DNA from: Celeribacter ethanolicus
Lineage (GTDB): Bacteria; Pseudomonadota; Alphaproteobacteria; Rhodobacterales; Rhodobacteraceae
Length of the DNA: 64,000 nucleotides
Direction of reading: 5' to 3'
Assembly: GCF_001550095.1 (NCBI RefSeq)
Contig: NZ_LRUC01000014.1
Location: 1-64,000, forward strand
Below, one piece after another: positions 56,608 through 61,478 of the stretch; position 1 is the first letter of the stretch; each line of letters begins with the position of its first letter. Under the pieces are notes generated by a model. It was not told the DNA's origin, searched no databases, and saw nothing but the letters and a program-made list of their open reading frames with translations. Position numbers and translations under genes: made by a program.

Positions 56608-57299
56608 CACCCCCGCGACATGACCGCTCCAAGACGGAAAAACTGTTTCCTTTCAATATGGCCTATCACAACGGCATAGCATATTGACTCACAGCTTCAG
56701 AAAACGACCTTCACGTTCGGACCAAGGATTGTGTCGTCGTCATCCGCGCGACACCGGCTTCAACGCTGGTGATCCGGAGGTTATCAAAAGACGGGCCTGA
56801 CGATCCGGCGAGGAGCGCCCGGCCATATCAAACGAGCCACCGTTCGCTGAAGCGTTTCGCCATCGTGGACCTCGAATGGATGCACCACGGACCGTTGAGA
56901 TGGACCGTGGTTCGGATCGGGTGTGGCCTCGCAAGTGACAGTCGAAGCCGGGAAGGGTCATCCCCCTTTGCCAAGAAATTCTACCAATTCCGCAAATCGA
57001 ATCGTTCACCGCGTTTCCCCTCCGCGCCCCTTGGCGAGATGCCCCCATCGCCTTGAACGGCCTATTCCATCACCGTTTCCTCACGGTTTCGCCGAGATAA
57101 CATATTGAATTGGGACTGAACCTTGCAGCCTGTCGGCGGATCTCAGCCCTTCGTGGTGCGGCGACGCGCCGAAAGGTCGGTTCTATGCTACCGTCTCATA
57201 GCGACGACCCCAGACGAGATTTGTGAAAACGGCCTATTCGTTGACGCCTTCGGTGCCAGCGGCTGGTGACGTGCACGCGGATATTGAGGACACCCGGGT
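56608..57299. other. 692-base gene-free stretch before the recombinase
   Basis: No gene with coding character is found here. It is AT-richer in parts and holds the 12-base repeat AACGGCCTATTC at 57056 and again at 57228, and a related GGCCTAT near 56660. One edge of the recombinase-bearing element, an attachment site and the recombinase promoter should lie in it. No tRNA was recognised. Confidence 0.45.
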
Positions 57300-58865
57300 T
57301 TGCTGAAACCGACGAAATGTTCTGACCATGACAAGACGGCCAAGCCCATGCTGCGCGCGGCCGAATATGTGCGCATGTCCACCGACCACCAACGATACTC
57401 GACCGAGAACCAGACCGAGGCGATCAAGGACTATGCCGCGCGCCGCGGCATGGAAATCGTGCGGACCTATGCCGATGAGGGCAAGAGCGGCTTGCGCATC
57501 GAGGGCCGCGACGCGCTCAAGGCGCTGATCGAGACCGTGACCTCCGGCCAGGCCGATTTCGAGGCGATCCTGGTCTATGACGTCAGTCGCTGGGGGCGGT
57601 TCCAGGACGCCGACGAGAGCGCCTATTACGAATATGTCTGTCGCCGTTCCGGGATCGACGTGCATTACTGTGTCGAGCCGTTCGAGAATGACGGCGGCCC
57701 CGTCGCGACCATCGTCAAGAGCGTCAAACGCGCCATGGCCGGCGAATACAGCCGGGAGCTGTCAAACAAGGTCTTTGCGGGCCAGTGCCGCCTGATCGAG
57801 AAAGGGTTTCGACAAGGCGGCCCCGCTGGATTTGGCCTGCGCCGCCTTCTGATCGACCAGAATGGCGTGCCGAAAGGGGTGCTTGCCCGGGGCGAGCACA
57901 AGAGTCTGCAAACCGATCGCGTCATCCTCGTTCCCGGCCCCGAGGACGAGGTCGCCATCGTGCGCGGCATCTACCGCGACTTTGTCGAAAAGGACCGAAC
58001 TGAGGCGCAGATCGCCGAAGGACTGAACGCACAAGGCATCCTGACCGACCTCGGCCGGGCCTGGACGCGCGGCACGGTTCATCAAGTGCTGATCAACGAA
58101 AAATACATCGGGACGAATGTCTGGAACCGGGTGTCGTTCAAGCTCAAGAAAACCCGTGTGCGCAACGATCCGGCAACCTGGCTGCGCGCGCCGAACAGTT
58201 TTCCGGCACTTGTCTCCCCTGACCAGTTCGAAGCGGCCACCCGGGCCATTGCGGCCCGTTCCATGGGCTTGTCCGACGGCGCGATGCTCGATGCGCTGGG
58301 GCGCCTTTTATCTCGACACGGTGTCCTGTCCGGCCTGATCATCAACGAGGCTGAGGACCTGCCGTCGAGCAGCGCCTACGTCAATCGGTTCGGAAGCCTG
58401 CTGCGTGCTTACAGTCTGGTCGGCTATCACCCCCGTCGGGACTACCGCTATATCGAGATCAACAGGCGCTTGCGCGACATGCACCCAGAGATCATCGGCG
58501 AGGTCATGGACGGCATTCGCAAGGCCGGTGGACGCGTCGCCACGGCCGGTTCGGGATGTCTTTGCCTCAACGGGGAACTGTCCCTGTCGCTCGTGATCGC
58601 CCGTTGCACCCAGACACCGGCGGGCTCGTTGCGCTGGCGAATTCGGTTCGACACCGGCCTTGTGCCCGATATCTCGGTCGTGATCCGGATGGATCTGCGC
58701 AACAGGCGCCCGCTCGACTACTTCCTGTTTCCCCTCATCGACATCGGCATGGGCCAGATCCGCCTCGGGGAAGACAACGGCCTTGCGCTGGACGCTTTCC
58801 GATCAGAAACGCTTGCGCCGCTTTTCACATTGGCGGCGCGACAGAGACTAGGGGAGGTCGCCTGA
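57300..58865 (+). CDS. Large serine recombinase
   Basis: A site-specific recombinase of 521 residues from a TTG at 57300 with GAGGA upstream; the ATG at 57348 is an alternative. The resolvase domain (about 18-165) has the nucleophile Ser27 in YVRMSTDHQRYSTENQ and the arginine-rich VYDVSRWGRFQDADES. A recombinase domain follows at about 190-310 (GFRQGGPAGFGLRRLLI, LTDLGRAWTRGTVHQVLINEKYIG). The C-terminal 200 residues show no recognisable zinc ribbon. Such enzymes integrate or excise elements, or invert DNA. Its stop overlaps the start of a ParB-like gene, which is unusual. Confidence 0.9.
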   Translation: MLKPTKCSDHDKTAKPMLRAAEYVRMSTDHQRYSTENQTEAIKDYAARRGMEIVRTYADEGKSGLRIEGRDALKALIETVTSGQADFEAILVYDVSRWGRFQDADESAYYEYVCRRSGIDVHYCVEPFENDGGPVATIVKSVKRAMAGEYSRELSNKVFAGQCRLIEKGFRQGGPAGFGLRRLLIDQNGVPKGVLARGEHKSLQTDRVILVPGPEDEVAIVRGIYRDFVEKDRTEAQIAEGLNAQGILTDLGRAWTRGTVHQVLINEKYIGTNVWNRVSFKLKKTRVRNDPATWLRAPNSFPALVSPDQFEAATRAIAARSMGLSDGAMLDALGRLLSRHGVLSGLIINEAEDLPSSSAYVNRFGSLLRAYSLVGYHPRRDYRYIEINRRLRDMHPEIIGEVMDGIRKAGGRVATAGSGCLCLNGELSLSLVIARCTQTPAGSLRWRIRFDTGLVPDISVVIRMDLRNRRPLDYFLFPLIDIGMGQIRLGEDNGLALDAFRSETLAPLFTLAARQRLGEVA

Positions 58866-59764
58866 TGAACGGGCCCCGGCCACAGAGCTTGCAGATGATC
58901 CCGGTCGCACAAATCGAGGTCATGAACCCGCGTGCGCGAAACCGGCGTATTCATCAGGAGATCGTCGACAATATCGACGCCATCGGGCTCAAGCGCCCGG
59001 TGACCGTGCGACACGACCCACACGCCCCGGATCGGTACGATCTCGTTTGCGGAGAAGGGCGGCTCGAGGCCTTCAAGATGCTGGGCCAGACGGCCATTCC
59101 CGCAGTGGTCATCGAGGCGAGCGAAACCGACTGCCTGGTCATGAGCCTGGTCGAGAACATCGCCCGGCGCCACCACCGGCCGATCGACCTCATGCAAGAG
59201 ATCGGCAGCCTCCGGCAACGCGGATATTCCGAAAGCGCGATCGCGGACAAGATCGGCTGCGCGCCCAGTTGGGTCCATCTGATCTCATCCTTGCTGGAGA
59301 AGGGCGAGGAACGACTGGTCTCCGCCGTTGAAACCGGAGTCATTCCGGTCACACTGGCTGCCGAAATTGCCCGGGCCGAGGGGGACGAAGTGCAAGACCT
59401 GCTGATGGATGCCTACGAAGCCGGGCACCTCAAGGGCAAGAAGCTCACCCAGATCCGCCGTATTCTCGACCAACGCGCGGCACAACGAAAAGCCTTGAAA
59501 ACCAATCCCCTCGGACGCGGCGAAAAAGAGCGCAAGCGAAAGCTCACCCAAGCCGACCTGATGAATCTTTACCAACGGGAAGCCGACCGACAGCGTATCC
59601 TCGTCCGTAAATCCGACGTGACGCAGGCACGTCTTCTCTTCGTTGTCGAGGCGATGCGCGACCTTCTGTCCGGCGCCGAGTTCACGGACCTGTTGCAGAA
59701 AGAAGGGCTGAGCGACATGCCGAAGGCCCTCGCCGAGAGGTTGCAATCGGGACCGGCCTCATGA
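58865..59764 (+). CDS. ParB-like protein in the recombinase operon
   Basis: A 299-residue protein. The ParB N-terminal domain is complete: LVCGEGRLEAFKMLG (nucleotide-binding box, residues 60-74) and SLVENIARRHHRPIDLMQEI (second box, 94-113). A helix-turn-helix with KorB-like neighbourhood follows at about 120-170 (RGYSESAIADKIGCAPSWVH). The C-terminal third is charged and likely helical. ParB proteins are CTPases that load onto DNA at centromere sites. No ParA ATPase gene accompanies it. Its ATG overlaps the recombinase stop (TGATG) and its stop overlaps the next start (ATGA). Confidence 0.88.
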   Translation: MNGPRPQSLQMIPVAQIEVMNPRARNRRIHQEIVDNIDAIGLKRPVTVRHDPHAPDRYDLVCGEGRLEAFKMLGQTAIPAVVIEASETDCLVMSLVENIARRHHRPIDLMQEIGSLRQRGYSESAIADKIGCAPSWVHLISSLLEKGEERLVSAVETGVIPVTLAAEIARAEGDEVQDLLMDAYEAGHLKGKKLTQIRRILDQRAAQRKALKTNPLGRGEKERKRKLTQADLMNLYQREADRQRILVRKSDVTQARLLFVVEAMRDLLSGAEFTDLLQKEGLSDMPKALAERLQSGPAS

Positions 59765-60684
59765 GCGGGAACAAACCCGATTTTCAAACCGTGAAGCTCG
59801 GCTTCGAGACCGAGCCGATCATGCTGCGCCTCGACCAGATCCTTTCACTCAAGACGCTTCGCCCCGGCACGAAGGACAGCAGCAAATACAAGCAGATCCT
59901 TGGCTCCGTAAAAGCCGTGGGTCTGGTCGAGGCGCCCGTGGTAGCGCGACACCCGGATGCCGCAGGTGTCTTTTTCCTGCTCGACGGCTCTCTGCGTCTC
60001 GAGGCTCTGAAAGATCTCGGGGTGCAGACCGTCGAATGCCTGATCAGCACCGACGATGAAACCTACACCTACAACAAGCGCATCAATCGCATTCCACCGA
60101 TCCAGGAGCACAAAATGATCACGCGGGCGATCGCCCGCGGCGTGCCCGAAGCCGCCATTGCCGAGGCGCTCGGGCTGGACATCAAGTCGATCCTCCGGCG
60201 TTCTCGTCTCCTCAAAGGGATTTGCCTGGAAGCCGCCGATCTTCTGCACTCCGCCTCCTGTCCGATGGCGAGCTTCGATGTCCTGCGCAAGATGGTGCCG
60301 CTGCGCCAGATCGAGGCAGCAGAGCTGATGATCGGGCAGAACAATTTCACGGTCGGATTTGCCAAGGCGCTTCTCGCCGCGACCCCCGACCCTCAGCTCA
60401 TTCATCCCAGGCGGCGCCCCGGCCGCTCCGACGGTCAGGGCATATCGCGCGATGACATGACCCGGATGGAGCGCGAACTCGCAAGCCTGCAGGCACAGGT
60501 CAGATCATTCGAGGAAAGCTTCGGTATCGACACCCTTCACCTCACTGTCGCACGAGGATACTTGCGCAAGATCCTGGGCAATCCGCGTATCGCCAGTTGG
60601 CTTGAACAAAATCGCGGGGAATACCTTGGAGAGTTTCGAACGATTGTCGAGGCTGAACAGGCCAGCCAGCCTCAGGCAAGATGA
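59761..60684 (+). CDS. RepB/ParB-like partition protein, second copy
   Basis: A 307-residue protein of the ParB fold with the RepB plasmid partitioning C-terminal domain. It has FLLDGSLRLEALKDLG (nucleotide box variant, 73-88), NKRINRIPPIQEHKMI (second box, 105-120), and a helix-turn-helix at about 128-148 (VPEAAIAEALGLDIKSILRR). It differs clearly from its neighbour, so the pair are not recent duplicates. The overlap of its ATG with the previous stop implies that the three genes are one translational unit. RepABC-plasmid RepB is the closest known type, but no repA or repC is present. Confidence 0.86.
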   Translation: MSGNKPDFQTVKLGFETEPIMLRLDQILSLKTLRPGTKDSSKYKQILGSVKAVGLVEAPVVARHPDAAGVFFLLDGSLRLEALKDLGVQTVECLISTDDETYTYNKRINRIPPIQEHKMITRAIARGVPEAAIAEALGLDIKSILRRSRLLKGICLEAADLLHSASCPMASFDVLRKMVPLRQIEAAELMIGQNNFTVGFAKALLAATPDPQLIHPRRRPGRSDGQGISRDDMTRMERELASLQAQVRSFEESFGIDTLHLTVARGYLRKILGNPRIASWLEQNRGEYLGEFRTIVEAEQASQPQAR

Positions 60685-60725
60685 TCCATTCGGAACCCCG
60701 GCCCCGAAACAAGCATGCGGACCAC

Positions 60726-60790
60726 GGGAGCCCCCCACTGTGGGGTGGATCGAGCGGCAGGGAGCCCCCTCCATTTATGGGTGGCCCTTC
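60726..60790. repeat. Tandem GGGAGCCCCC hairpin repeats
   Basis: GGGAGCCCCC begins at 60726 and 60760, 34 bases apart. Each is followed by a short palindromic spacer and GGGTGG, so that each unit can fold into a small hairpin. They lie about 40 bases after the RepB-like stop. They could be a partition (ParB-binding) or recombination site, or the operon's terminator. Confidence 0.45.
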
Positions 60791-60820
60791 CCACTCGGCG
60801 GACCACGTTCAGGAGGCCAA

Positions 60821-61009
60821 TCACAGCCCCCAAATGACCTCCGCCGCAATCTCGAATGAGCGGATGCCAGCGGCCTGATCGTGGATCATCCCCGTCACCA
60901 TCAACTCATCGGGCGGATACTTATCAATGAGAGCCGACATCTGGGCCGCAAGCGTCGAGGGCCCGCCCACGGCGGCACAGCTCAGCATCCGGTCGACCTT
61001 CACCCGCAC
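60821..61009 (-). pseudogene. 3' remnant of an LLM-class flavin-dependent oxidoreductase gene
   Basis: The last 60 or so residues of a luciferase-like monooxygenase are readable: VDRMLSCAAVGGPSTLAAQM, then DELMVTGMIHDQAAGIRSFE and the stop after IAAEVIWGL. The N-terminal four fifths are missing. The homology stops at about 61009, right before the helicase remnant. It shows that a chromosomal gene was cut during past rearrangement. Not functional. Confidence 0.7.
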
Positions 61010-61010
61010 C

Positions 61011-61394
61011 GGACGACAAAGTATTCCTCGCATTGATCCGGGATATTCTGATCCGGCTTGCGAAGACCATCTCTGAGGCTTCAAAAGCGATCATCGGCTG
61101 GTTTAGCTCTGCGCGCCTGGAAGAAAAATCTGAATGGGATTTCAAACAGAAGCATGACTTATACACCAATCTCGAAAAAGAAGATTTGCGGACGCTACAG
61201 GGTGAAAAGGTCAAAAGTTATGAAGAACTCCTCATAGCAAATTGGCTCTACGAAAATGGCGTCGAATATGAATACGAGCCAGACTATGAATTCGACACGT
61301 CAGATCCCACAAAGAGGAACTATTGTCCGGATTTTCGCCTGACGGAGAGCGGCGTTTATATCGAGCATTTCGGCGTCCGAAAGCAGATGCATAT
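61011..61394 (+). pseudogene. Internal remnant of a UvrD/HelD-like helicase gene
   Basis: The frame reads KSYEELLIANWLYENGVEYE, YEPDYEFDTS, YCPDFRLTESGVYIEHFGV, which matches the region before the helicase core of DNA helicase IV-like proteins. Upstream codons are in frame as far as 61011 and have no start. Downstream it stops matching near 61386, where a transposon end begins. Both ends are therefore missing. Confidence 0.7.
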
Positions 61395-61478
61395 TGTTAG
61401 TAAGTTGCCGCTTGTTTCGCTATAGCGTTGCCGCTCAACACAATTAGCATTGCCCACCGGGGCATGACGAGCGATGAG

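Follow-up and report, generated by a model that had tools for sequence, protein, structure and literature searches.

A conserved gene trio of a serine recombinase and two ParB-like proteins, frequently followed by a structured RNA: a mobile cargo module with a possible role in defence

What a large serine recombinase might do together with two dissimilar ParB-like proteins, and with no ParA encoded beside them, is the question raised by three overlapping genes in a 64,000-nucleotide stretch of Celeribacter ethanolicus DNA (contig NZ_LRUC01000014.1, positions 1 to 64,000; hereafter the window). The genes, here called recombinase, ParB1 and ParB2 and collectively the trio, had been noticed in a first-pass annotation, which proposed that the ParB proteins serve the recombinase in integration or help to maintain an excised circle. 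This interpretation was supported in part: the coupling of the three genes without ParA is real and widespread, whereas the proposed role in integration or circle maintenance was not borne out. The recombinase and the two ParB-like genes form a conserved, selected and overlapping gene set. As its best explanation we tentatively favor a horizontally mobile cargo module, most likely for defence against phages or plasmids, in which the ParBs, an RNA and the recombinase would act together.

Conservation was assessed by scanning genomes and viruses with a ParB2 profile, which yielded at least 538 ParB2 relatives among at least 592 pattern matches in genomes and 95 relatives among 137 pattern matches in viruses; the best 80 of each were kept, and gene order was then judged with a profile for each gene. 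Recombinase, ParB1 and ParB2 followed one another in this order on a single strand in 71 of the 76 genome loci whose upstream sequence reached 2.6 kb or more (four loci were too short) and in 49 of 52 viral loci (28 being too short), and all exceptions, five and three respectively, were partial or frame-broken copies. The coupling is thus not accidental. The ratio of nonsynonymous to synonymous substitution rates (dN/dS) was 0.02-0.13 for 34 of the 36 values obtained by comparing genes of related copies; ParB2 of L096/L103 (0.33) and the recombinase of L064/L072 (0.35), which is split in two frames in L064, lay higher. Between the window and locus L034, dN/dS was 0.11-0.19 with dS saturated. 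The trio genes are under purifying selection.

Of the 385 genomes scanned from the class to which the window belongs, 21 contained a close relative of the recombinase (E<=1e-60), at 27 places in all, and ParB was undetected, within the stretches examined, at four of these (three in genome G421 and one in G238). The solo relatives in G421 (L370:6030-7691 and two more copies) are 43-45% identical to the recombinase. A motif scan of the 132 loci of at least 9 kb, a rough test limited to the locus and leaving room for a parA elsewhere in the replicon, found no ParA-type Walker A motif and hence no sign of the ATPase partner that characterizes ParABS and RepABC systems. Neither of the outcomes named beforehand as evidence of a chance association, a constantly nearby parA or the absence of ParBs from most homologous loci, was observed. 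The trio as a unit was also not described in the literature that we searched (mostly openly accessible papers, with preprints not covered), in agreement with the earlier statement that no characterized system has this composition.

Direct reading of the open reading frames (ORFs) confirmed that the three window genes are intact and overlap as annotated, with TGATG between recombinase and ParB1 and ATGA between ParB1 and ParB2 (Table 1). The recombinase matched the Pfam families Resolvase (5.9e-22) and Recombinase (2.4e-21). Its annotated catalytic residue Ser27 is indeed invariant, in 45 of 45 aligned sequences, but that number holds only when counting from the TTG start; from the in-frame ATG, which lies nearer than the TTG to the start of some homologues, it is Ser11. 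D78, R81 and R84 are equally invariant, so that the catalytic serine and core residues are conserved. The predicted structure (mean predicted local distance difference test score, pLDDT, 79.7; predicted template modelling score, pTM, 0.49) matched the SPbeta, Bxb1 and PhiC31 integrases in the PDB, with best hits spanning about 315 columns, and CcrB was the best NCBIfam hit, far below the cut-off. The recombinase therefore shares its catalytic and recombinase domains with the large serine integrases. It differs from them in its C-terminal region of about 180 residues, which was modelled at moderate confidence and had no match in Pfam or PDB, in its fixed ParB partners and in usually not being its carrier's only candidate integrase. 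Pfam returned only the two domains above cut-off and not the zinc ribbon or coiled-coil C-terminal domain of canonical large serine integrases, and one well-conserved Cys lies in the C-terminal part.

ParB1 matched ParB_N (5.5e-12) and RepB (2.8e-30) and contains both nucleotide boxes, as had been read at first. ParB2, annotated as RepB-type, matched RepB (9.3e-44) and did not match ParB_N in Pfam. A ParB2 profile built from 45 sequences matched Noc/ParB structures and the structural model (pLDDT 84.1, pTM 0.57) matched ParB, Noc and KorB, so that ParB2 is best regarded as a ParB fold with altered boxes, DGxLR replacing GExR and YNKRxNR replacing ENxxR in a comparison by eye. Both proteins share the fold, the helix-turn-helix (HTH) and the RepB C-terminal domain of the ParB/Noc/KorB/RepB family, and they depart from it in being two dissimilar paralogues per operon, one with altered boxes, with no ParA found nearby.

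A fourth component, overlooked in the first-pass annotation, was recognized 3' of ParB2 on the same strand, where a noncoding stretch of about 135 nt is highly conserved in a close-pair comparison. Alignment of this RNA over 40 loci gave a fold of 29 pairs, 14 of them with compensatory change. A covariance model placed the RNA in 58 of the 80 genome loci, always directly 3' of ParB2, and 57 of 59 matches in these loci scored 88.8-171.2 bits. In the alignment obtained with this model, which was fitted to the structure and is biased towards it, paired cells amounted to 97.4% against 90.5% in shuffled data and double changes to 121 against 30.6. Locus L073 carries a second full-length match (L073:17676-17837), 6.7 kb past the first, and shows no ParB2 similarity beyond 12 kb. 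Among the 385 genomes there were 17 confident RNA sites in 14 genomes, all 17 with ParB2 or its remnant directly upstream, and one additional weak, partial hit (G155) without it. Rfam returned no family at gathering score for the window and six loci, and a 401-base stretch gave one match at E<=10, attributable to chance. The noncoding stretch is thus a covarying structured RNA of a family that is not in Rfam. Its distribution on the ParB2 tree requires 13 changes, which indicates that gain or loss was recurrent. A role as a folded single-stranded DNA site is less likely, since G-U pairs occur often among the changes and the strand does not vary. We also considered and rejected a transposon with its end at the hairpin GGGCGTGCCGG..CCGGCACGCCC, as the hairpin looks like a terminator and not an element end; in phages at tRNA-Met, a string similar to it is the 3' end of a neighbouring gene.

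Additionally, 90 of 177 loci, a set that is partly redundant and includes loci with little upstream sequence, have a divergent gene 5' of the recombinase, which the first-pass annotation had not noted either. The product of this gene gave only sub-threshold HTH hits in Pfam and is possibly a regulator.

The carriers of the trio are diverse. It was found on plasmids (six were read, five of them typed as conjugative), on genomic islands adjoining guaA behind a tyrosine integrase (guaA being recognized by eye), and in prophages located close to tRNA-Ser or tRNA-Met (some tRNA ends likewise recognized by eye), and near-identical ParB2 occurs in distantly related hosts. Another candidate integrase, tyrosine-type in 7 and serine-type in 10, is present in 17 of 22 viral records, and for this reason we dropped the idea that the trio recombinase is, as a general rule, the integrase of its carrier. 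A second serine recombinase was found in 10 of the 18 viral records scanned for one, nine times tens of kb away at or near the other end and once (G454) as a partial match about 9 kb off. Because the sites differ (tmRNA, guaA, tRNA-Ser, tRNA-Met), most viral records hold another integrase and the trio is optional in one phage family, the suggestion that the ParBs support integration by the recombinase or upkeep of an excised circle is unsupported; it is plausible that they assist the recombinase in some other act. Locus L085 had appeared to be a minimal, trio-only element at tRNA-Ser, but its additional ORF is a piece of a different serine recombinase, and the locus therefore looks like what is left of a prophage.

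The place occupied by the trio was compared across a single phage family, which was sampled with the tail-side ORF adjoining the trio in L123. This ORF is related by BLAST to a DUF2793/phage-tail-repeat protein, and the best 80 of its 226 relatives were kept. Nine of these loci hold part of the module (six with ParB2 and three with the RNA only), and the trio or its visible end is present in 4 of the 33 family members whose sequence leaves 2.8 kb or more for it. Twenty-seven of the 29 roomy loci lacking the trio were analyzed, and the corresponding region contained 99 ORFs in 60 clusters. One large cargo protein per locus, 20 in total, was scanned with PADLOC (E<=1e-10), and 10 matched. After exclusion of a methyltransferase in L318 lying beyond the tRNA-Met border and of a Fic protein in L293 related to the Fic beside the trio, 8 of 18 cargo proteins matched defence families (seven of the nine that lie within mapped borders and one of the nine from loci with unmapped borders), compared with none of 10 tail-side control proteins. 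The strongest matches were GajB in L270 (749 bits) and HerA in L298 (505 bits); weaker or partial ones were IetA (L267), ZacB (L294), a GajB-like helicase (L299), IetS (L328), HEC-05 (L336) and an LmuB/PtuA-like protein (L276). These prophage proteins, such as GajB, HerA and IetS, occupy the same slot in the same phage family and are unrelated to the trio, with no recombinase among them.

The slot itself has recognizable borders. In 13 of 16 loci lacking the trio, the tail-side border equals that of L264 within 7 bp, the opposite border holds tRNA-Met, and the 4175-4179 bp of L264 and L132 correspond to 38-42 bp in L293. A related pattern was seen elsewhere: L051 has ZacB/ZacC matches, whose BLAST kin start 203-206 bp 3' of ParB2 in L064, L067, L069 and L075. 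Several trio phages have a Fic-domain gene that separates the divergent gene from tRNA-Met (for example L123:289-1488 and L126:219-1475), and a Fic-domain gene is also present in L293, which lacks the trio. Altogether, the trio is an optional, interchangeable cargo in one phage family, much of its sister cargo is defence-like, and the module therefore sits in a place where known defence genes are carried.

From this position we infer a defence role, and from the domain families a mode of action. ParB1 and ParB2 would load onto DNA as nucleoside triphosphate-gated clamps, with the RNA as a structural or regulatory partner; clamps and RNA would then allow the recombinase to act on incoming DNA, or on host DNA in an abortive response, by cutting or rearranging it, and the protein of the divergent gene would repress the operon. 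A bolder version, a ribonucleoprotein machine in which the RNA and both clamps load, license or even aim the recombinase at foreign DNA, seems improbable to us. To our knowledge, a dedicated RNA partner of a recombinase occurs in the IS110 group only, and we know of no close precedent for a recombinase as a direct defence effector.

Several observations weigh against the defence reading in addition to this missing precedent. The slot evidence comes from one phage family, where 10 of the 18 cargo proteins had no defence family match, several of the eight matches were partial or generic (helicase, ATPase) and the ZacB match in L294 was weak, and where the gaps between L293 and other trio-bearing phages were larger (380-1498 bp). 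None of the three trio proteins is represented by a PADLOC model. The RNA and the divergent gene cannot be essential, since 22 of 80 and 87 of 177 loci, respectively, lack them in recognizable form, and the RNA model had no match in the six Escherichia coli regions scanned, including that of BL21(DE3).

The E. coli copies also bear on the strongest alternative, an accessory mobility module in which the recombinase and its ParB helpers, located near the attachment (att) site of the carrier and beside the main integrase, control excision, resolve multimers or exchange cargo. Among 5426 complete E. coli genomes, 650 matched the trio, 617 of them over 80% or more of its length, and all 650 places are chromosomal. 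In BL21(DE3) the relative lies at ssrA (NC_012971.2, 2624036-2627371; L374:20001-23336; ECD_RS13085, 13090 and 13095). Six of the regions were read: in four, the trio comes after ssrA and an integrase gene (in one of them with an insertion sequence between), the fifth has the same integrase with ssrA not in view, and the sixth has a broken integrase inside a tRNA-Arg island. Thus the trio follows an intact integrase gene in five of six, as a mobility module might, which also counts against defence. Likewise, several groups carry the trio 0.3-5 kb from a tRNA, tmRNA or guaA end (recognized partly by eye), the tmRNA and guaA groups place it behind a tyrosine integrase, and 5 of the 22 viral records, which may be fragments, show no other candidate integrase. 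The available part of the report on Dehalococcoides ssrA islands describes an integration module of six genes at a tRNA-like locus, with two serine recombinases and one ParB-domain protein of 210 residues (DsiB, DsiA and a ParB-domain gene; PMC3146451); it resembles the trio in pairing a serine recombinase with a ParB-domain gene at an att site and, as far as that part describes it, differs in having no pair of RepB-type ParBs (PMC3146451). On the other side, the trio is optional in the phage family and is swapped with largely defence-like cargo, its carriers differ in sites and integrases, and the E. coli copies probably share ancestry. Due to the integrase-neighbour arrangement in E. coli and the islands and to the viral records with no other integrase, this alternative keeps some weight, although we consider it rather unlikely.

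Less likely again is a self-mobile element, in which the recombinase would insert the whole module, reaching from the divergent gene to the terminator of the RNA, into cargo slots. A discrete block with sharp borders on many replicons, and the near-identical copies across distantly related hosts, would fit such an element. Against this, no target duplication or recurrent left end was noticed in the junctions viewed, for which no systematic search was made, and the tail-side border is identical for unrelated cargo and hence belongs to the slot. A last alternative, in which the ParB pair would partition or maintain the excised form or the plasmid and the recombinase would resolve multimers, would suit the ParB folds with RepB C-terminal domains and the conjugative plasmids, but is very unlikely given the missing ParA-type motif and the frequency of the trio on integrated elements, the E. 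coli chromosomes among them.

A partial parallel to the favored defence role is PinQ, a small serine invertase of E. coli that inverts e14 DNA and is reported to protect against a phage (PMC12529663). It shares with the trio the presence of a serine recombinase, and no ParB or RNA partner is mentioned for it in the part of that report available to us (PMC12529663).

The copy in the window itself differs from its relatives outside the coding sequences. Its RNA is degenerate, in contrast to the full RNA retained by its nearest relatives, and no divergent gene precedes its recombinase; the noncoding parts of this copy are therefore probably in decay or divergent, while its ORFs are intact. The upstream stretch did not clearly resemble the corresponding DNA of four relatives, and the sequences become similar from about 57354 onwards. 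Downstream, a 130-residue ORF (61033-61425) is presumably a cut-off piece of a UvrD-type helicase and a fragment on the minus strand (60821-61020) is one that we take to be of an LLM-type oxidoreductase, both with no Pfam hit; the latter is 77-82% identical to DNA of six genus relatives. As it does not lie beside the HAD gene in relatives where both were found, the junction appears rearranged, and no empty site for the window trio could be read. A partial TniB (PF05621; 62006-62512, minus strand) represents transposon remains beside the trio.

Table 1. Positions of the trio and adjoining noncoding features in the window.
Feature	Coordinates	Strand	Remarks
Large serine recombinase	57300..58865	+	TTG start at 57300, TGA at 58863-58865; alternative in-frame ATG at 57348
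ParB1, ParB_N and RepB C-terminal domain	58865..59764	+	ATG at 58865; boxes GEGRLEA and ENIARR
ParB2, divergent ParB-fold protein with RepB C-terminal domain	59761..60684	+	ATG at 59761; boxes DGSLRLEA and YNKRINR
Upstream intergenic stretch	56608..57299		No divergent gene recognized there
Degenerate RNA copy	60686..60811	+	Covariance model 14.2 bits; part of the model unmatched

The combination of a recombinase, ParB clamps and an RNA brings together three things that are not known to work together, and the presence of a homologue in BL21(DE3) makes the question open to direct testing. Should the trio prove to be a defence system, serine recombinases and ParB clamps would gain a new role; should it instead serve mobility, it would represent a new kind of recombination control.

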